This document shows, one piece after another, positions 6,301 to 51,000 of a stretch of 64,000 bases of DNA; within the stretch, counting starts at the first letter, position 1, and the number at the start of each line of letters is the position of its first letter. The DNA is taken from positions 57,790,019-57,854,018 of the forward strand of contig CM049306.1 of the NCBI GenBank assembly GCA_026874595.1, given 5' to 3'. The notes under the pieces are model-generated. The model saw nothing but the letters and a program-made list of their open reading frames with translations, did not search any database and had not been told where the DNA came from. This DNA comes from Sipunculus nudus. Taxonomy: Eukaryota > Annelida > Sipuncula > Golfingiida > Sipunculidae. The position numbers and the translations under genes are program-made.

Positions 6301-9300
6301 TGAGTGTTCCAAATTTTGGAGAGAAATATGCAGCCCTGCAAAAGTTTATCAAGTTCACAAGATATCCTAAAGACAATGTCTGAAGACAACAGATGATGGC
6401 ACTGATAACAACATGTCTCCCGGGGGGGGGGGGGGGGGGGACATAATTATAGGCAAGTGGTATTAAAACATCTTGCATTTCAGTTGACATTACAAAGACA
6501 ATGTAATACTTTTTTTATAATCATTCAATTTTCACTAAATTATTGCCGGTTGGAATTGTTTGAATACAATTTACAAATCCTTATGTCAATGTTTTTTTTT
6601 CAATTATTTAGTTATGAATTCAGGTTAATATTCAATATTATGATTTCTCTCAATGGCAAGCCCTAAGCTTATTGATAACTGATCACTGATCCAACAGATG
6701 TTAACATTTAACCTGATAGCCAGCCCTTGGTAATATGTAATATACTGGTAAAATACTAAAACCTATGGACCTATTCATACCGAGTAAAAAAAACAAGGGA
6801 CCCATGGGTCATGGCACTCAGCTGTTATATATGATAAAAAATATGATTTGGGAAAGAGGCACATGCTTGTTTTGTGTGGTAATAAATACAAGGGACCTAT
6901 GGGTCACGGCGCTCAGGTATTAAGTCCTAGTGACCAAATTCTTGGCATGGTAGGGAATTTTGGAGACATCTAATTGTATGCCAAATTTTAGGAACTGAGA
7001 GCTGAAGCTGGGGAGCTGAGCTCTTGCAAACTGCATAACACTAGCTTGATGTAAACAATTTGTTACATGGTGCTTGAAAATTTGAATAAAATCTACAGTT
7101 TTTAATCAACTGGTTTCAAATTTTTGGTGTTAACAGACAAAATGCTAACAAAAACATGCTGCGAAAATTAAATCCACAGTACTTACAGTAAAAAAACGTG
7201 CCATGGTCAAAGCTGGGCAAAATTTAAGGTACCAATTTTTTATTTTTGTTAATATTTTAAAAAATTTAAAAGATTTTGATCTAATTTTGGGTATACAATT
7301 TAATTTTGATAAATTAATGTTATATTACTGGAAAAAAAGTCCATAGCTTTAACAAGTTTTGTGTTAAGTGATCAAATATCTTTCCTGATTTTTTACAAAA
7401 TGCATTATGTTTGGGCCCATAACTTTTTTAAATTATATAAAACAGACATAATTTCTGGCATGTACATAGGAACTATATAGAAGAATATTTATGGTAAATA
7501 TGAGGGAAAACAGATGAGTGGTTTTGATATTAGACAGTCCTGAAGTGTGAAAATAGGTTTTTAATAAAAAATTGAGGTTTTTCCTTAATTTCTCAAAGGA
7601 ACGAAGTCGCAAAGACCCAGTTTTCGGCTTGGTAGGAGATCTTGGGGACATCTAACATTATGCTGAATTTTGGATTCCTAGGTCTTACGGTTTCAAAACG
7701 TGCCACATCTACGGACGGACGGACGGACGGACAGACGGACGGACGACGGACAATGGACCACGACTATAGCTCAGATGACTTATAGTCAGCTGAGCTAATA
7801 AGCTTTATTATGGGTTGTTTGTGTTTAGCTTATGTATGATTTTGGTAGTATCTTTGGAGACAGGGAAGAGGATTGATTTCATTTATTTTATTAACAAATG
7901 GAGTGCTATTGTCACACAGATTTTGACTTGGCCATATAACTTATAAGCAGCACATATTATAAAAGAATTTAACTATTTATTAAAATTTAATAACAAATAT
8001 TGTGCCAATATAATTTTTATTTAAAAAAAATAAGAAGAAAATCATATGATTTTTTAAAATAAAATATAACTGAAATGATTATTGAAGTAATATTGTAGAA
8101 TATATTCATGAATGCATTCATGAATACATTTTGAAAGTATCTGCACTGGTATTCAAATACTTTCATTTTAACCTGAATTCCCATTCTTATGCAATAAATT
8201 TTTTTAATGCAGTACATATTCATATTCGTATTCAAATACATTTGCAAAGCAATCGCACCATGTCTAGTATTTATTCAGTTTTAGCCAAACAAAGATGTTG
8301 AGAATCCAGAATATACAAAATTCACAAATTTAAATAATGATCATAAGTACCTGGTTTTATGGCTTTTATTCATATTAAAAAAAAATAAATGTAATATATT
8401 CACTATGGACTACTTTCACATCAATCTACACACTAGACACAGTAGGAATCTAGATTAATATTATTAACTGCATTTTTGTCTATCATTAATTTCCTTCATA
8501 TGATCCCTAATGATTAGTAATGAATAATATGATTTATTTTTTTATCATTGAAATTTCACTGAAAAATACCATAGGTGACTGCATGGTGTTATTTGGAATA
8601 ACATTGACATTGACATTCTATCCATCCATACAAGATTCTTACATCATCAGTAACTGCAAGTTAATTTTCTGTTACGCATCAACTAACAAATTCCTTTTCT
8701 ATTGATTTTTCTTTAATTTGTTATAAAAAACTAATACAAAATTATTAATTTATTGTTTATTGTTATGTTGTTTTTCAAAACAACTACTAGATGAGTTGGG
8801 TTGGACACCTGGATCAACTGTGGCTGGGCATTAGCTGCCTGGCTGCCCCAGTGTATGCTTCGCTCAAGCATGCATAATCTGATGAAAGGTCAACATACAG
8901 GTGACTGAAGAGGGGCTGGATTAAGCCTGGGTCTGACATGGTCTCATATAAACATTAATAAAAGCTACAATATTTGGCCAATTTGTTTCAGCTTTCTAAA
9001 CTACAAAGATGAAATCCTTATGTGTGCATGATATGAAAATTATATCAACAGTGCTCTCAGGAAACAAACATGCCATGGTCAAAGTTGGGCAAAATTTAAG
9101 GTACTAATTTTATATTTATACTAATAACTTATAAAATTTGAAAAATTCAGAACTAATTTTTGGTATTCAATTGAATCTTGATTAAATAATGTTACATCCC
9201 TGGCAAAAAATCTCTAGCTTCAGCAATCCTCTTGTTAAGGGAGTAAATATATTTCTTGATTTGTTAAAAATTGCATTATGTTTGGGCCCATAACTTAAAA

Positions 9301-12300
9301 CAATTACGCAATACTGACATCATTTCTGGCATGTGCATAGCAAATGTTTAGAAAAATATGGATATTATATATGATCGAAGTCAGATCAGTGGTTTTGATA
9401 TTAGGCAGTCTTACAGTGTAACAATGGGTTTTTAATGGAAAAATGAAGTTTTTCATTAATATTTCGAAGGAATTAAGTCCTAGTGATAAAATTCTTGGCA
9501 TGGTAGGGGATTTTGGAGACATCTAACTGTATGCTAAATTTAAGGAACTTAGAGCTGAAGCTGGGGAGCTGAGCTCTAGCAAACTGCATAACACTAGCTT
9601 GATGTAAACTTGATGTGACATGGTGCTTGAAAACTAAAATCTACAGTTTTTGATCAACTGGTTTCAAATTTTTCGTGTTAACAGACAAAACGCTTACAAA
9701 AACATGCTGTGAAAATTAAATCCACAGTACTTACAGGAAAAAAACGTGCCATGGTCAAACTTGGGCAAAATTTAAGGTACCAATTTTATATTTTTGCCAA
9801 TATTAAAAAAAATTTAACAGATTTTGATCTAATTTTTGGTATACAATTAAATTTTGATCAATTAAGTTGTATTACTGAAAAAAAGGACTGAAAGGACAGA
9901 CGGACGGACAGACAGACAGACGGACGGATGACGGACAATGGACCACGACTATAGCTCAGATGACTTATAGTCAGCTGAACTAAAAAGCTTTATAATTTCA
10001 CATATTGTGTGCAATAATATACTCCTATTAAAATCTGAAGCAAGTGCTTTTCTTGTAACCAAAATTCTTTGAATTCTAAACAGAACTGATACACAAAATA
10101 AATAAATCTGCCAAGATTTTCATATAATTAAACAAACCATGAATTATAAGTTCTCAGTGTCTGAATAATTACCCATTTATATAAAGTAAAGGTAAGTTTA
10201 ACTTTACATACCTACTGATGACCATTGCACAAATTACTGGTGTCCAGCCTGTGTACAGTACTTCATTGGTGTACTTATTCCTGTGTGAAATCACACACCA
10301 CACAGGTGTTAATAAAAGGAAGACAGACAGAAGTAACGGAGCTATCCACTCATGCTGACCTGGAAACAGACACAAACACTCTGATTTCAGATGTACAGTC
10401 TAACCTCTTTCATTCGCAAACTTTGGGACCGGGGAATTTTCTGGCGGTGAGTGAGGGTGGGGGTTGTTCAAGGGGGGGAGGGGGGTTCAAATGGGATGGG
10501 CAGGGTAGTTTAAATAGGGCATTTATTAGCCAGCCATTAGAATATGCAAAATCAGTAATGCCCCGTTTTGCACCAAACTCTGGCTTTCTGGCGCAGCAAC
10601 TCGTCTGTTACTTGGGCCTTTTGAGAGCAGGCAGTGCAGAACCAGAGATACAACACCTATTCAGCTCAGGCTCATTGGCAAGTCTCGCGACCTAGCTAGC
10701 TCTCTCTATGTTGTCAGGCTGCTACTTCACCAATTGTCTGCCGCTTGACCTCGTAGCCCCAGAGCGCTGAGAAATGGCTTGCAAAATCTGACGATCTCAC
10801 TTTTGTTGACAGGCTTGAGAACGGTGCGCTTGCGTTTTCTTGAAGCCATTGTAACATAACTACCCTGCTGCGTTATTACCTGCTTATATACCTTAACGAA
10901 AATGTTTATACAGGCAGGAGGTTAGAACAAACAAATTCACAAAAATCTTTAATTAATAGAAAACTTAAGACAATCCCCGTTATTGTTGCAAACTGTAATC
11001 AAAAATTGAATAAACAGTCTTTGAACCCCCGTGCAACCTTTAATTGCTTCAAACTACTCATGTGGTTTACCTCATTAAATGACACTTAAACAACTCTAGG
11101 TGTGAACTCAACACGGGTTACTCGGCTGATGACTTCTGTCGGCAAACAACTACGGGGGGTTAAGTCATTAATTAATTAGCGGCACCGGGTACTTAATCCT
11201 AGGCAGTGAGGCGTGACATGTTTTAAACAGAGACGCGGCCAGGTCAGCTGAGCCCGAGGGATAACACACCGGATTCATGAAATATTCCCGATTTGTCTTT
11301 AGTTGGAATCAGAAAGGGACTGTGGCACACTGGGGTAAAAAAACACCTGGCGGATGGTGGATAGCGAGGCTGGCAAATGAACGAGGTAAATAAGTAGTAG
11401 GAAATCGGGACTATGTCATTTGTAGGCGGTAGGCGAGGTTGGCGGATAAACAAGGGGCGAATGAAAGAGGTGTACTATATAATATATATTATATGTATAT
11501 AATAGTCCTTTTTACTGTATCAACTCTGGGAAGAAAGTTTAAATGTATATATGTATAAAGATTGTTTTCCTAAAGATATAAAACTGTAAAATATCAATTG
11601 CAACAACAGGCTAAAGTAATATAAAGGGAACCCATAACAGGAATCTGATCATAAGAGTGATCTTCAAAAAAAGTATACATTTAAATATCTGTAATATATA
11701 CATCATAAGGTCTTAAGACATATAAACAAAAACAGGTGACAAGAGTAAACTGTATTTTACATTTATAATTCCAAGTTATATTCATGCATTTTAATTTGTT
11801 AAATAGCTGTTATAATTTATTTTTTATATTTTTTAGATGCTAAAAATAATCCATTTCCACACTGATAAAACTTGTTATTTAAAATAATCCCTTAATGGAA
11901 ATCAGCTTATCCTGATTGGGAGATAATCATATTTAAGTCATCCAGAGGAAAATAAGGAGAAATTTTTTCTATATAGGAAAACTTTCAAATCTGACCAGTT
12001 TAACTTACCTAAAGCCTTGTAGAGTAATGTTGAAATGCCTGCTAGAAGTGACAGGGTGGTCAAATCACCAAGACTTGCAGCAATAGGGGTGGCCACGTTG
12101 TCTGGGTTGATATTGCACTTGCGTGATAAAATAATTACTAATATCATAATACAACCTGCAATAAAAAGTTAGAATCATAATACTTATCTGCAGCAGCTGG
12201 TTTAAAGAATTTACAATACAGACAATATAAACACTAATGTTCTTGTATGCAAACTAAAACGACAACCCGATTGTTAACCTATAGGCCCATCTATACAGGA

Positions 12301-15300
12301 ATTTATTGTTTTCACTGGCCAAGTCATGGCTTCAGCTATATTCATAAAAAAATTATGTAATGAAACTAGATATTTCTTGGCACCGCAGGTGCCATAATAT
12401 TCATAGACAATTAACCCCCCTCTTCCCCCAGCCTCAAAGAATAGGATCCCATCTTAAATTCAGATGCAGAGACTGACACTTGGCAAGCCACCATGGTTTC
12501 TTTTCAAATTTGAGCTAGTTGTTGATAAGATGCATCAAACTTGTTTGTTTGGTGACCGAACCTCAAATTCTTACAAAGTTATTCTGCTTAAACATCATTT
12601 TAGCAAGAAAACAGCATAAGGTGGCACCACATGTCTTCTGCAGAAAACAATGCTATCAAAGATCTTATGTCAATTTGATTATTGGAATAATCCATGCATC
12701 CCTCAGTGAGATATTTAAGTTAACATCATTTAACTGTTATTGCCTCTGTGACCTTGAAAAATGCATCAAGGTCATCCATATTCAAACTTGGCCTAGCCCT
12801 TGATAAGATGCATGTAAACTGTAGGTTTGGTGACTGTACCACAAATTATTTTTGAGTTATTGCCCTAATATCATTTTAGCATAATCGCTGCTGTGACCTT
12901 GAAAAAATGCATCAAGGTCATCCAAGTTCGAAATTGACCTAGCCGTTGATAAGATGCATCAAACCTGTGGGTTTGGTGACTGTAACTCAAATTCTTACAA
13001 AGTTATTGCGTTGACATCATTTTAACAAGAAAACATCACAAGGTGGCGCAACCTGTCTTCTGCAAAAGACAAAGCTATCCAAGATCTTCGGTCAATTTGA
13101 TTTTTGGATCATTCCATTTATCCCTTACTGAGATATTAAAGATTTTGTGTGAATTTCACCAAATTTGGGAATATTCAAGGTCAAGGCCACTCTCATAGGA
13201 AAGTTCATGACCCCAATTTAAATTAACATCATCCCATTACCCATAGCTATGTATACGCATAATATAAAAATAATCGGTCCATTAGTTTTTGACTTATAAT
13301 GCTCACAGTACTTTCAAGTGGCAATTTTGGGGTATTAAAAGGCACGAAAACAAGTGAAGAATAATAAGTGGAGCAACCAGTTTCTGGAACATAACAACCC
13401 TATCCATTATCTTCGATCAACTTGATTTTGGGATCAATCCATGCAAGATTTCTTGAGATATTTAAGATTTTGTGTGATTTTCCCCAAAATGGGACCTATT
13501 TAAGGTCAAGGACACTCTCCTAGTAAAGGTCATGACCTCATTTTAAATAAGCGTTGTCCTCTCACCCATATCTATACATTTACCAAGTTAAGTTAAGATC
13601 CGTCAAATATTTTTTGAGTTATTAAAGATTTTGTGTGAATTTCACCAAATATGGGAATTTTTAAGGTCAAGGCCACTCTCATAGGAAAGGTCATGACCCC
13701 AATTTAAATAAACATCATCCCATAACCCAAATCTATGTAAATGCATAATAAAAAAGAGATCTGTCCATTAGTTTTTGACTTATAATGCTCACAGGACTGT
13801 CAAGTTGCAATTTCTGGGGTATTTAAAGGCACAAAAACAAGTAAAATATAATAGGTGGCGCCACCAGTTTTTGGAATATGACAACCCTATCCATGATCTT
13901 CGACCAACTTGATTTTTCGATCAATCCATGCAAGGTTTCTTGAGATATTTAAGATTTTGTGTGATTTTCCCCAATATTGGACCTATTTAAGGTCACGGAC
14001 ACTCTCCTAGTAAAGGTCATGACCTCATTTTAAATAAGCGTCGTCCTCTCACCCATATCTATACATATATAAATTTTTTGAGTTATCGCGCCAACAAGAT
14101 TTATATGTGGCGGGACCGGTATGAAAACATAGTATCCCCCGACTTTGTCTGGGGATACAATTATAATGTATCAGATTACATAAGCTTGTCATGAGAGGTT
14201 ACAACTTGTACTCTACCTAAGATGAAGCTGGCAATAGCAGCAGTCAGCACACTAGCTGTGCACAGCAGCAAGCCATGGCTGATGTTGAATTTTCCTTGAG
14301 GTATCCAACCAAATACCATGGCTGCAACAGAAGCCAAAAAGCCTACCACAATGGCTTGAGCCTGCAAAAGCAAACAGAGTGTATATTGTATGAGAGAGAA
14401 AGAGAGACAGACAGAGAGAGAAAAAAAATCAAAGTTAATATATTTCATATACAGTGAATGAGCCCTACACCATGGTACCATACAATAACAGGGACCAGAT
14501 GGTATATCCTCAATGTCCTCTTCCTGCAGTAGGAATCTGAGATCCGGAGTGCCCGACTATGTAAACAGTAACCACTGGTCTAGAAGCTTCTTGGAGGCTT
14601 AGTTGGTAATTTTCATGCAGGGAAGTCTATAGAACATTTGTTGACTAGAACTTTCCTGAAGTTTCTTTGTAGCAGGTATTTTTAAAAGCCAGTTCCAAGG
14701 CCTGGGGAGAGCTGTGATTGCCAAAACATTAGTGTGCAGAACATCTTTGCAGGAGTCTGGCAGCATAGCTATTAAAATAAATATTGTCAATTCTATTGTT
14801 AGCATTTACACAGATAATCATGAGTCAATCACTGATATTATCAATTCACTGATAATCAGCTCTAACTACCGTAGATCCGCGTTTTGCCGACGCGGCCATA
14901 AAATAAGACTTACAGCCAAAAATCCTGACTAATATTTCTCGACAAGGGATGCGGCTATAAAACGCAGGTTAGGCTAGATTCAAACATGTACAAGTGACTC
15001 GACAGCCCGCCAAGGCGCAATGGGCGATAATAGGCTGAGGAAGAAGTGAATACTGAGAATGTATATGTTATGATACTGCATATTTATATATTAATTTTAT
15101 TCATTATTAATTTTATAAAATGTAAAATTGATATTTTAAACAGGCTTATACGTATTATAAAAATTTTCTGAGTCAGTCATAAACCACGGCAATTTTCACG
15201 CAATGATTGATAAAAGATCAATATTCACTCGCCAAATTATGCATTCTATCAAGACTAACGGTTATACCTATGTTTGAGTATGGCTGCAATATCGGTAAAA

Positions 15301-38091: not shown

Positions 38092-40724
38092 TTAGCTCAG
38101 CTGACTATAAGTCATCTGAGCTATAGTCGTGGTCCATTGTCCGTCGTCCGTCCGTCTGTCCGTCCGTCCGTCCGTCCGTAGATGTGGCACGTTTTGAAAC
38201 CGTAAGACCTAGGAATCCAAAATTCAGCATAATGTTAGATGTCCCCAAGATCTCCTACCAAGCCGAAAACTGGGTCTTTGTGACTTCGTTCCTTTGAGAA
38301 ATTAAGGAAAAACCAATTTTTTATTAAAAACCTATTTTCACACTTCAGGACTGCCTAATATCAAAACCACTCATCTGTTTTCCCTCATATTTACCATAAA
38401 TATTCTTCTATATAGTTCCTATGTACATGCCAGAAATTATGTCTGTATTATATAATTTAAAAAAGTTATGGGCCTAAACATAATGCATTTTGTAAAAAAT
38501 CAGGAAAGATATTTGATCACTTAACACAAAACTTGTTCAAGCTATGGACTTTTTTTCCAGTAATATAACTTTAATTTATCAAAATTAAATTGTATACCAA
38601 AAATTATATCAAAATCTTTTAAATTTTTTAAAATATTAACAAAAATAAAAAATTGGTACCTTAAATTTTGCCCAACTTTGACCATGGCACGTTTTTTTAC
38701 TGTAAGTACTGTGGATTTAATTTTTTCAGCATGTTTTTGTTAGCATTTTGTCTGTTAACACCAAAAATTTGAAACCAGTTGATCAAAAACGATAGATTTT
38801 ATTTAAGTTTTCAAGCACCATGTAACAAATTGTTTACATCAAGCTAGTGTTATGCAGTTTGCAAGAGCTCAGCTCCCCAGCTTCAGCTCTCAGTTCCTAA
38901 AATTTGGCATACAATTAGATGTCTCCAAAATTCCCTACCAAGCCAAGAATTTGGTCACTAGGACTTAATACCTTCGAGATATTAATGAAAAACTTCATTT
39001 TTCCATTAAAAACCCATTGTTACACTTCAAGACTGCCTAATATCAAAACCACTGATGTGACTTTAATCATATATAATATACATATTTTTCTATACATTCT
39101 CTATGCATATGCCAGAAATGATGTCAGTATTGCGTAATTGTTTTAAGTTATGGGCCCAAACATAATGCACTATGTAAAAAATCAAGAAATATATTTACTC
39201 CCTTAACAAGGGGATTGCTGAAGCTAGAGTTTTTTTGCCAGGGATGTAACATTATTTAATCAAGATTCAATTGAATACCCCAAATTAGTCCTGAATTTTT
39301 CAAATTTTATATGTTATTAGTATAAATATAAAATTAGTACCTTAAATTTTGCCCAACTTTACCATGGCACATTTGTTTCCTGTGAGCACAGTTGATATAA
39401 TTTTCATATCATGCACACAAGGATTTCAGCTTTTTAGTTTAGAAAGCTGAAAGAAATTGGCCAAAAATTGTAGCTTTTATTAATGTTTTTATGAGACCAT
39501 GTCAGACCTTTACTCTCTCCAGCCCCTCTTGAGTCACCTGTATGTTGACCTTGTTGAACTTTCAGCAAATTATGCATGCTTGAGGCGAGCCATACACTGT
39601 TGCAGGTAGGCAGCTTATGGCCAGCCACAGTTGATCCAGGTGTCCAACCCAACTCATCTAGTAGTTTTAACCAACAACATAACAATTAACAATAAATTAA
39701 TAAATTTTTATTGTTTTTTAATAACAAATTAAAGAAAAATAAAAAAGAATTTGTTAGTTTATAATAACAGGAAATCAACTTGCAGTTACTGATGATAAAA
39801 GAATCTTGTATCGATGGATAGAATGTCACATACTCCAAATAACACCATGCAGTCACCTATGGTATTTTTCAGTTCAATTTTAATGATAAAAAAGTAAATC
39901 ATATTATTCATTACTAATCATTAGGGATCATATGAAGGAAATTAATGATAGACAAAGATGCAGTTGATATTATTAATCTAGATTTCTACTGTGTCTAGTG
40001 TGTACATTGATGTGAAATTAGTCCAAAATGAATATATTACATTTTTTTTTTTTAATATAAATAAAAGCCATAAAACCAGGTACTTTTGATCATAATTTAA
40101 ATGTGTGAATTTTGTATATTCTGGATTCTCAACATAATTGTTTGGTGAAAACTGAATAAATGCCAGTAATGGTGGGAAAACTTTGCAATTGTATTTAAAT
40201 ATGAATATGAATATGTACTCCATTATAAAATGTCTTGCATACAGAATTGGAATTCAGGTAAAAATGAAAGTATATGAATACCAGTGCAAATACTTTCAAA
40301 ATGTATTTATGAATGCATTCATGAATATATTCTTTAATATTATTTTAATAATCATTTCAGTTATATTTCATTTTAAAAAATCATAAGATTCTCTTATTAT
40401 TTTTAATAAAAATTATATTTGGGACAATATTTGTAATTTTTTTTTAATAAATAGTTAAACTCTTATATCATATGTTCTGCTTATAAGTAATATGGCCAAG
40501 TCAAAATCTGTGTGACAATAGTACTCCATTTGTTAATAAAATAAATGAAATCAATCCTCTTACCTGTCTCCAAAGATAATATCATAATTATACATAAGCT
40601 AAACACCAACAACTCATAATAAAGCTTATATTTATTACCACACCAAACCAGCATATGCCTCATTCCTAAATCATATTTTTTAATCATATATAACAGCTGA
40701 GCGCCGTGACCCATAGGTCCCTTG
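38092..40724 (+). mobile_element. Fullest Helitron-like/pearl-like copy (copy Z)
   Basis: Starts TTAGCTCAGCTGAC, with a hairpin of outer arms TAGCTCAG and CTGAGCTA and inner TGACT/AGTCA arms. It continues through a CCGT microsatellite (38148-38180) and ends ...GACCCATAGGTCCCTTG at 40724. In reverse orientation it is collinear with copy X/Y at 6.8-10.0 kb and contains both of their deleted parts, so it is the best model of the element (2633 bp). Two segments, 38160-38470 and 38880-39180, are diverged internal repeats of each other ('ctaatatcaaaaccact' in both). It encodes no Rep/helicase, so it is non-autonomous if Helitron-related. Confidence 0.78.
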
Positions 40725-43009: not shown

Positions 43010-43945
43010 TCTGAGAAAAGAAAAAGGCATTAATTTATTTAATGAAAGCAGGAAGGAAGTTGGCGCCACCTGTCTGGTTTACGAGAAGACTCTCCAAGAT
43101 GATGGACATGCTAAATTTCAGACCAACACATTATACCCCTCCTGAGATATGAGCAATTTTGACCCAAGGCATACGAACGGACAGATGCCAAGCAAAAACG
43201 ACTGAATGTGGCGCCACCAGCCTTGAGTACGAGATGATGGTATCCAAGATCTATGGACATGCACAATTTCAGGCAAATACTGCAAACCACTCCTAAGAAA
43301 AGGGCATTAATTTATTATACAAAAATGGGAAGGTAAGTGGCTCCACCTGTCTGGTTTACGAGAAAACTCCCCAAGATGGATGGACTTGCTAAATTTCAGA
43401 CCAATACATTGAACCAGTCTTTGGATATGTGCAATTTTCACCCAAAGCAAATGAACGGATTGATGCCACGGGAAAACGATGGCAGATGGCCCCACGAGTC
43501 TTGAGAACAAGATGGAGGGGTCCAAGATCTATGGATATGCACTTTTTAGGCCAATGCGGCAAATCACTTGTAAGAAAAGGGCATTCATTTATTCTACGAA
43601 AACGTGAAGGTAGGTGGCACCACCTGTCTGGTTTACGAGAAAACTCTCCAAGATGGATGGACATGCCAACTTTCAGACCAATACCTTGAACCACTCCTGA
43701 GATATGAGCAATTTTCACCCAAAGCAAATGTACGGATTGTCGCCACGAGAAACGATTGCAGATGGTGCAACCAGTCTTGTTTACGAGATGGAGGTGTCAA
43801 GGATCTATGGACATGCAAAATTTCAGCAAAATACATTGAACAACTCCTGAGATATGGGCTGTTATCTATAAGACGCCCAGATTCGTACTGGCACAGAAAG
43901 GTTTGCAGGTGGCGCCACCTCTCTTTGGTACGCAAAATTACATAG
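43010..43945 (+). repeat. Satellite-like array, ~276-280-bp unit, three-plus copies
   Basis: 'ctgtctggtttacgagaa' occurs at about 43071, 43349 and 43624, a period of about 277 bp. Each unit also has a second half-unit with 'gcgccacc'/'gcaccacc', 'caagatctatggacatgca' and 'gaacggattgatgccac'. The two halves share 'aatttcag.ccaatac', so the unit is itself a diverged dimer. Confidence 0.88.
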
Positions 43946-48030: not shown

Positions 48031-51000
48031 CTGTGTATGACATAAAAATGAGATCAATAGAAAAAGTTAAGATATATTTTAAGTTATATCTTAAATTAAT
48101 CTTATCAATATATCATTGGTCCCCTTAGAGCGACAAGACTAGGAACTTTTAATGCCCTTGGATCTTTACCCTTGATAAGGGCAAAACACGCTAGCCCGGG
48201 CGGCACGCGTTGTGGAATCGCTGTGGAATATTGAGAACTTTTGTGGTATTTTACATGTTTGTCTGAGAAATATACCCCTGTTTAGCGTAAATTTTGATAA
48301 AATAGTCATGTTTTTACTTGGTGTACAATAATTTTGATTTAATATATCTACAATATGTATCTATGTGAACATATATGAATTTAATTTACAAATAAAAGAA
48401 TTATATATAAACATGCATATGCCTATATACAAGTGTCATAAATGTTATATTTATTTATATATTTAAGTATACATATACATATGGTAAAATTAAATGCGTT
48501 TTACTAGAGTTTCGACAGACCCAATACATATTTACAAGATATTTGCTGCCACAATCGCTCCGGGAGCGATTGATGAAACTTGCCGTCTGCGTCAGTGTGT
48601 ATTGTCATATTACAGGAAAGCAATATTCTTTTACGCTGCCGCCCACGCCAGTGTGTTTTGGCCTTTATTTTCAGGCGTTTGTGCATGGGTTCACGATCCT
48701 TTATGTTTTCAAGACATGAGGGGGATGTCACCCACAAACAGTACGACCGTAATGCCTGCTGGAGGATACGCAGGGTTTCAAACACTGCAAGTGCAGGTAT
48801 GGAGCATGGGTCAGGAAAGGAACCAATAAGTTTTGAAGAGGAAACGGATAAAGTGGCGTGCCCGGTACCTAGGATTATTTCCCTGAGGTATTTGCTTAAC
48901 TGCGTACGAGTCCAATTGTGTGACGTACTAATATGTATATATCAGGAATTTACTGCATTCACTTTACAGGCCATTAGTATAATGTATTTTACATATTTTA
49001 TATCGAACAGTACCAAAGGCATGTCAGGGCTAAGGGTATGTACCGTGCGTGTTTCCTTTTTTAATTAGGAACTTACCAAGAACACCCATGGCATTATCAG
49101 TGATTTTTTGTGAGCCTCTGACTTCCATGATAAGGGTTCTGTAGCCGTTGATCTGGACTTTGTGGATTATTATGCTTGGTCCCGCTTCTGTTGTGATGAG
49201 GACGTTCTCTGGTGTCACCCACACCCTCGTGTTACGCTGAGTTGCTCCCCACCGGTACACACGTCTGTTGATGCGCATGCCGTACTTGGTGACGTAAACA
49301 TGGACCCGGGGTCCAGCGAACACCTCCACGCCGTACAGAATCAGGCTGCCGTCCCCGATATGTGAGGTGTGTACACGTGCCCGGATATCAATTCCTTAAA
49401 TTGAGAAAAATAAATGCAGAATATTTGTTATATATTATAATATATGCTGATGAAATAGCGAATTAATCTAATTATATATTGGTATGCATGGATAAATAGT
49501 TCGAATATCAAACGGTGGAGCCAAAATATAAAACAGGGACATAACAATGGCGGAGCCAGAGGATAAGGCAGTGGCAGGAGACGAGGTTACTAAAGAAAAA
49601 AAATCATCAGGAGACAGGCTGGGCCAGAGGAAAAGAGAGTAGCATTAAACAGGCAAGATCAGAGAAAAAGAAAGGGTGACAGGCGGGACCAGAGGGAAAG
49701 AAAGTGTCAGGAGACAGGCGGGACCAGAGGGATAGAAAGTGTCAGGAGACAGGCAGGACCAGAGGGAAAGAAAGTGTCAGAAGACAGGCGGGGCCAAAGG
49801 AAAAGAAAATGTGCAATAGACAGGCGGAGCCAAAAGAGGGGCAGAAAAATATCAGTAATACCAGAAAGGCATTGTTAATGTGGTTGTTATGTACTCAAGT
49901 CGTAATGTCAATACCTGCATCCTTGAGCGCTCTGTACCAGCCCTGGTTACCAGTATGAGGCCAGTCGAGGCAAACCAACTGCTCATCGCTGTAGGACGAG
50001 GCCAACGGCAGCGCGAACACTGATAACAGAAAAAGATAACATCATGTAGACAGCAGCAGTGACACAGAAAATGGTAACCTCATTAGGATAAACAAAATAG
50101 CTTAAAACGACCAACCAGCTTAACGTTCACACGTTCGATTGATGTCTCTAATCTCGTGAATGAAACATAAATATGTATCTAACTATATTATGTGGGGCAC
50201 TGCTTTTGCAGTGAACCTTAAAATTCAACGCTCATTAATTTTCATGAATAACAATAGCGTACTTACAGACCAGAGGGGTAGTATCTTTGGACCTCGGCTC
50301 TTTAGCGTGAATAATATCGAAATCGGCCTCTGATGTTGGTTCTTTAGGCTCAGTCGGTGCCTCTGTTGCGTCAACAGGTGGCTCGGTTGGTTTCTCTGTT
50401 GTTTCGACCGGGGGCTCAGTTGGTGCCTCAGTAGGTGCGTCTGTCGGCTCGACGGGAGGCTCAGTTGGTGCGTCTGTCGGCTCGACAGGAGGCTCAGTTG
50501 GTGCCTCAGTTGGTGCGTCTGTTGGCTCGACAGGAGGCTCAGTTGGTGCCTCTGTCGGCTCTACAGGTGCCTCGGTTGGTGCGTCTGTCGGGTCAACAGG
50601 AGGCTCAGTTGGTGCCTCAGTAAATGCCTCTGTTGGTTCTACAGGTTGCTCTGTTGGTGCCTCTGCCGGTGTCATTGTTGGCTCTGCTGGTGCTTCGGTG
50701 GGTTCCTCTGTGACTTCACCGCTGGACGGATCTGTGATCTCACCGCTGGACGGTTCTGTTACTTCGCCACTTGCTGTGACAGGAGCATCGGTGGCCCCCT
50801 CGCCGCTCTCTGTCACCTCTCCGCTCCCACCAGACGTCACGTCGCCACTGCCTGTAACTGGGGCATCTGTGACTTCGCCACTCGACGCCGTTGACGGCTC
50901 CTCGCCGCTTGATTCGGGCTCCCCGGACACTGCCTCCTCTCCTGACTGGCCACTCTCTGTTGGTTGAACTGTCCCTGATCCACCATCAACCGTTGATCCC

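Follow-up and report, generated by a model that had tools for sequence, protein, structure and literature searches.

What kind of element can insert exactly into a relative of its own, and which of its two ends is the first? The question is raised by a stretch of 64,000 nucleotides of Sipunculus nudus (assembly GCA_026874595.1, contig CM049306.1, positions 57,790,019 to 57,854,018, forward strand), hereafter the window, in which one transposon copy, Y, interrupts another, X, and a third, Z, carries the uninterrupted site. In a preliminary description Y was taken for a variant Helitron with a CTRR-type end at CTAA. According to the present analysis X, Y and Z are very probably HINEs, non-autonomous relatives of Helentrons that are moved in trans by a RepHel-endonuclease protein and enter T-rich sites without duplication or loss of target bases. 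The directly observed evidence comprises the termini, the target, gap-free empty sites and coding loci with a common 3' terminus. The family is a further member of an already known element type. A HINE read backwards mimics the CTRR end of a Helitron, and this plausible misreading is corrected here.

Nested copies, termini and target site

The copies and the empty site are the following.
6794 to 9983, minus strand: copy X, a HINE of 2280 bp without Y, split by Y and with a partial deletion near its 5' end
6889 to 7798, minus strand: copy Y, an internally deleted HINE inside X, its 3' subterminal inverted repeat (subTIR) reduced to CTGAGC
38092 to 40724, plus strand: copy Z, a full HINE of 2633 bp carrying the empty counterpart of the Y site
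40615 to 40645, plus strand: empty site of Z matching the insertion point of Y, junction 40628/40629

Y lies inside X with no target duplication, no lost bases and one base ambiguous, as first described. Its joined flanks matched the uninterrupted sequence of Z without gaps within 40 bases of the junction, with a few substitutions. Nineteen uninterrupted copies matched the joined flanks across the junction, four of these rows being gap-free throughout; six of the 19 (L048, L058, L038, L035, Z and L042) were inspected base by base, and all six were gap-free within 40 bases of the junction. Empty paralogues were likewise found for two further copies. S2 (C1:132566-135510) was compared with its paralogue L039 (93% identity, gap-free at the junction), four further spanning rows of 74-79% identity with 9-13 gaps lying outside the inspected set. 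S1 (C1:175437-178082) was compared with six of many spanning rows (L027, L036, L049, L004, L010 and L028; 80-89% identity), gap-free at the junction; all six carry G beside the junction where S1 carries T, and S1 alone therefore does not fix the target base. The joined flanks of X, Z and L038 gave no spanning match in the local comparison.

Y corresponds to roughly the first 880 and the last 30 nt of a Z-like element. Among 40 scored copies only Y matched over positions 1-910, the rest starting at 27 or 28, so that its deletion is private among the scored copies. With its 3' subTIR cut and its deletion absent from the 39 remaining scored copies, Y was most likely inserted as a longer element whose central part disappeared afterwards. 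The family is abundant: a 28-mer with three two-letter positions at one terminus had 7192 matches in the 1.43-Gb genome and a 30-mer at the other had 14,459, against none for the reversed-pattern control of either, which excludes chance. Neither six open reading frames (ORFs) from the window nor a 108-aa relic had a Pfam match.

The termini and modules were located as follows.
7769 to 7798, minus strand: 5' terminus of Y, TTAG with subTIR and inverted repeat (IR), forming the hairpin
7711 to 7749, minus strand: GTCC-type microsatellite of Y
6889 to 6916, minus strand: 3' terminus of Y, imperfect palindrome GACCCATAGGTC and CCTTG end
9954 to 9983, minus strand: 5' terminus of X
6794 to 6821, minus strand: 3' terminus of X
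38092 to 38121, plus strand: first 30 nt of Z
38139 to 38179, plus strand: GTCC microsatellite of Z, 10.5 copies
38219 to 39404, plus strand: central repeats of Z, two degenerate copies with a period of about 680 bp and 77% identity
40697 to 40724, plus strand: last 28 nt of Z

On one strand the modules run in the order 5' TTAG, subTIR and IR, GTCC microsatellite, degenerate central repeats, 3' subTIR, palindrome and CCTTG. For oyster HINEs the available parts of PMC7492417 give, from 5' to 3', subTIR, IR, microsatellite (GTCY, GTCC or GTCK in several), central repeats, 3' subTIR and palindrome. The HINE order fits only the strand opposite to that of the preliminary description, and in its true direction the element reads 5' TTAGCTCAGCTGAC...CCCTTG 3'. 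The CTAA side is the 5' end because the microsatellite and the subTIR/IR hairpin are located there and the RepHel loci described below run toward CAAGGG. The 5' subTIR and its complementary IR form the hairpin GCTCAGCTGAC / GTCATCTGAGC; folded as DNA, the 5' module TTAGCTCAGCTGACTATAAGTCATCTGAGC reached -10.6 kcal/mol (z -5.07), and none of 200 shuffles was as good, confirming the hairpin reported beside CTAA. The tetranucleotide itself is the complement of the 5' TTAG and not a CTRR end. At the other side an inverted copy of the subTIR, GCTCAGCTG / CAGCTGAGC, was found by reading to be perfect over 9 bp, and the 12-bp palindrome GACCCATGGGTC is present in many copies, with one mismatch in Y and Z. 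Terminal inverted repeats were not seen in the termini read, and a canonical TC end was absent on either strand reading. With a period limit of 500 in TRF, the central repeats of Z are absent from the TRF list.

The consensus target site, TTW^TT, was obtained from 39 distinct 5' flanks (terminus with up to 3 mismatches and an obligatory TTA start) and 38 distinct 3' flanks (terminus with up to 2 mismatches). T was found at -3 in 39/39 and at -2 in 38/39, position -1 being T in 32 and A in 7; on the 3' side +1 was T in 38/38 and +2 in 36/38. Looser settings, with 40 and 55 flanks, gave 33 T and 7 A at -1 and T in 53/55 at +1. Genome-wide, TT directly followed 6888 of the 7192 exact 3' ends. The site is thus T^T rather than the A^T proposed from Y, which is a minority site: the base before the element is A at 7 of the 39 5' flanks. 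With the direction reversed and a T^T target, the non-TC end CAAGGG, complement of CCCTTG, is therefore an ordinary HINE 3' end rather than the 5' end of a variant Helitron.

A Helitron of canonical type, having a non-TC 5' end, a hairpin with CTAA at its 3' end and A^T as its target, would agree with the hairpin immediately before CTAA and with the A^T site at Y. Such an element is highly improbable, however, given the T^T target of most copies, a hairpin made of subTIR and IR and followed inward by a GTCC microsatellite, as on the 5' side of HINEs, the coding loci terminating at CCCTTG and the missing TC end on both readings. What stands of the Helitron assignment is the rolling-circle superfamily; strand, ends and target are those of a HINE/Helentron derivative.

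Both flanks were readable at Y, X, Z, S1, S2 and L038, and matching letters were present on both sides in all six: TA at Y and at least two T's at the other five. The sites of Y, S1 and S2 keep their length relative to the empty paralogues, and nothing was therefore duplicated there beyond one ambiguous base; a duplication of 2-10 bp, looked for at the six sites, is possible only at X, Z and L038, where duplicated T's are compatible with the flanks. Because the element begins with T, as do all 38 of the 3' flanks, a 1-bp T duplication is indistinguishable from zero duplication. On this account a miniature inverted-repeat transposable element (MITE), or another element moving by cut and paste, that duplicates 1 bp (T) and has the ends TAG...CTTG is formally inseparable, but it is highly improbable: the termini read lack terminal inverted repeats, the 3' end of L068 and L069 (below) provides a link to RepHel, and the subfamilies have little in common beyond their ends.

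Further observations were made beside HINE copies. On the minus strand of L038, at 986-1528, an element of 543 bp is bounded by HINE ends on both sides, its 5' end having 4 mismatches; just inside that end is a tRNA-like sequence recognized by eye, a captured or inserted piece. Four tRNA-like sequences were seen by eye in L059, three on the plus strand about 305 bp apart and one on the minus strand. Among the rows listed (14 of 23), a repeat with GGTGGCGCCACC and T-runs lies beside HINE ends, in the direction of the HINE, in L013, L024, L029, L036, L040 and L041, with a spacing of 336-338 bp in L013; it is possibly the central repeat of another HINE or a favoured target. Local tandem repeats of the window are located at 13000-14144, 43018-43874, 49575-49812 and 50313-50711, with spacings of about 325/161, 277, 35 and 33 bp, respectively.

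Coding loci sharing the 3' end

The genome contained 143 matches to Helitron_like_N. A search with the endonuclease fragment of L044 (150 of 618 candidates scored) led to C3:10579141 and C7:71193028, each with a same-strand Helitron_like_N match 3.7-3.8 kb upstream, and to two loci.
C3:10571200-10581150: RepHel locus L068
C7:71185000-71194950: RepHel locus L069

The two loci are 97% identical over 5.5 kb, and their match ends one shared T past the 3' end of the family, of which 28/28 bases are present in L069 and 27/28 in L068; the loci end in CCCTAG (L068) and CCCTTG (L069). Each coding region is split into several frames; those of L069 include an open one of 1658 aa, with Pfam Helitron_like_N and PIF1, and those of L068 one of 392 aa, with Pfam endonuclease domains above cut-off. 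The upstream sequence of the RepHel loci is common to three copies. In L033 and L044, decayed endonuclease fragments in the expected direction precede the 3' end by about 450-495 nt. S2, a deletion derivative in which both HINE termini are exact, matches the tail of L068 and that of L069 at 85-86% identity, in one block of about 0.5 kb and another of about 0.13 kb, and therefore bridges HINEs and RepHel loci. From these sequence matches the abundant HINE family appears to be tied to RepHel loci by a common 3' terminus. In the search proposed in the first description, for an autonomous Rep/helicase relative with the same ends, the 3' end was recovered in L068 and L069 and the 5' end was not. 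L068 has in addition another 3' end, of the type of a second family, 177 nt further on.

A Helitron2 or proto-Helentron, of the same superfamily and mobilised by an enzyme without endonuclease, would also have asymmetric ends with palindromes, and insertion at A^T is described for proto-Helentrons in the available part of PMC4067079. This origin is very unlikely in view of L068, which bears the HINE 3' end and has endonuclease domains, and of the endonuclease relics of L033 and L044, which are inside elements with the HINE 3' end.

Several observations weigh against the assignment of X, Y and Z to HINEs mobilised by a RepHel-endonuclease protein. The perfect subTIR of 9 bp is below the 11-15 bp given for HINEs in the accounts consulted in part (PMC7492417, PMC4067079), and folding of the 3' palindrome did not surpass that of shuffled sequences (z 0.66 and -0.62). 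The upstream sequence, covered for 8.5 kb before Helitron_like_N on C7 and for 4.2 kb on C3, showed no 5' terminus. X, Y and Z share with L068 and L069 only the outermost 28-31 bp or so, with 1-2 mismatches (69-71% identity over the last 60 bp), and are therefore at most of the same family and of another subfamily; with S2 they likewise have only the outermost 28-31 bp in common. Among five more RepHel loci, L061-L065, which are of two kinds, with coverage of the 5' side limited to 0-490 nt, four lacked a related 3' end in the 2.7-3.0 kb or so that follow downstream; Pfam was applied to L062 and L065, the endonuclease match of L065 being below cut-off. On the coding strand of L065 a 3' end of second-family type (4 mismatches) follows the RepHel ORF at a distance of 1.0 kb (minus strand, at 8222). 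It may belong to L065 itself, which would then be a candidate for an autonomous element serving the second family, or to a separate insertion. The direction of the ORFs alone is a weak guide because some Helentrons have inverted ORFs, as stated in the portion of PMC5148889 seen.

Taken as HINEs, X, Y and Z would have been mobilised in trans by a RepHel-endonuclease protein and would have entered TTW^TT sites as single strands, the target bases being neither copied nor lost. By analogy with the family, the HUH-Rep would nick the element, the helicase would peel a strand off to yield a single-stranded intermediate, the endonuclease would open the target and the 3' palindrome would act as a stop signal.

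Strand domains on contig C1

The orientation of copies was analysed in a stretch at one end of one chromosome (C1:64,038-16,982,760). The lists comprised 100 of the 7192 3' ends (C1:0.06-8.0 Mb) and 100 of the 14,459 5' ends (C1:0.10-4.6 Mb) of the HINE family, 100 of 6738 copies of the second family (C1:0.19-17 Mb), whose 3' end is ...GTCACTTG and which are followed by TT genome-wide, and 100 of 3275 A-tracts. Strand runs were scored after thinning to one copy per 10 kb, with 20,000 shuffles.

Among the matches listed, HINE copies hold one strand for tens to hundreds of kb. The 69 thinned 5' ends showed 12 switches against 26.6 in shuffles (reached by 0/20,000), and the 82 thinned 3' ends 21 against 33.1 (reached by 15/20,000). 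In the two lists, pairs on the same strand numbered 34/37 and 24/26 at 10-30 kb, 82/105 and 62/75 at 30-100 kb, and 167/219 and 136/174 at 100-300 kb, with fractions of 0.57-0.65 farther apart; overlapping pairs make these counts non-independent, and the two lists in part record opposite ends of one and the same element. The chance level is about 0.6 because minus copies prevail in the listed stretches (51/69 of 5' ends and 59/82 of 3' ends, thinned). Below 1.2 Mb, 41/42 and 29/29 copies were on the minus strand, as were 16/17 divergent 3' ends, all of the latter within about 1.5 kb of copies of the HINE family.

Listed copies of the second family showed a weaker coherence, with 33 switches against 47.5 expected (P about 0.002) and the same strand in 9/14 (10-30 kb), 27/42 (30-100 kb) and 73/119 (100-300 kb) pairs, chance being 0.5. 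They agreed with the nearest HINE-family copy in 18/22 cases at 5-30 kb, 25/33 at 5-100 kb, 18/30 at 30-100 kb and 24/38 at 100-300 kb. The listed A-tracts, a sparse control that is not a transposon, had no coherence (51 switches against 48.5) and no strand agreement with HINEs (10/26 within 100 kb, 15/33 within 300 kb). Genome-wide strand counts were about equal (3537/3655 for 3' ends, 7181/7278 for 5' ends, 3406/3332 for the second family). In the window itself X/Y and Z are about 30 kb apart in opposite orientations.

Target composition was rejected as the cause of the domains, TTWTT being about equally dense on the two strands (399 and 365 in the flanks of 29 loci, 40.6 kb) with small skews (GC 0.026 +- 0.014, TA -0.045 +- 0.018), as was re-copying of one locus, the flanks being different. 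Over distances of 10-300 kb an effect of nesting alone is improbable. Possible causes are lagging-strand insertion, transcription-linked insertion or selection, and the history of this stretch. It is conceivable, as a tentative proposal, that Helentron insertion is strand-selective in the host, entering mainly transiently single strands such as the lagging-strand template, and that HINE copies, by their orientation along chromosomes, preserve a fossil record of fork direction (or of transcription), a eukaryotic parallel to IS200/IS605. No general outward-fork rule appeared among the listed endonuclease relics less than 2 Mb from contig ends, scored by eye (left ends 5 minus and 4 plus, right ends of 14 contigs 6 plus and 5 minus; from the 150 of 618 candidates). 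If the domains were genome-wide and matched fork direction, the single-strand target choice of eukaryotic rolling-circle transposons would become directly testable and, through thousands of insertions, so would ancestral replication direction.

Comparison with known systems

Among the matches listed for a literature search with the literal end motifs, none concerned transposons. In the titles and opening parts of abstracts of the papers listed, no orientation domains of Helitrons or Helentrons were found, which does not prove their absence. The closest parallel to the strand domains, and to these only, are the single-strand transposons IS200/IS605, whose orientation follows replication direction according to the part of PMC5371812 consulted; these differ in being bacterial and in using other enzymes.

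Subterminal inverted repeats, a repeated core and a tetranucleotide microsatellite are likewise described, in the excerpts available, for the bivalve Pearl elements CvA, CvE and CvG (PMC7492417, PMC5874043, PMC11136912); their core repeats are of about 160 bp, against about 680 bp here, the comparison being one of descriptions and not of sequences.

Cg_HINE of Crassostrea gigas has the same order of modules, a GTCC-like microsatellite in several members, a TT or T-rich target without target site duplication (TSD), and empty paralogues found in the same way (PMC7492417, as far as seen). It differs from the present family in its central repeats, which here are of about 680 bp and degenerate, the likeness being one of layout and not of sequence, and in that coding loci with the common 3' end were found here, whereas that study was unable to link the Cg_HINEs with any autonomous element. 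Central tandem repeats are frequent and not obligatory in HINEs. Empty paralogous sites had already been used for HINEs of mite (PMC4067079) and oyster (PMC7492417). The perfect subTIR has 9 bp here; that of mite HINEs has 12-15 bp and that of DINE-1 has 13 bp. DINE-1/HINE and Helentrons, as described in the part of PMC4067079 available, have the same layout, a T-rich target without TSD and a RepHel protein with endonuclease.
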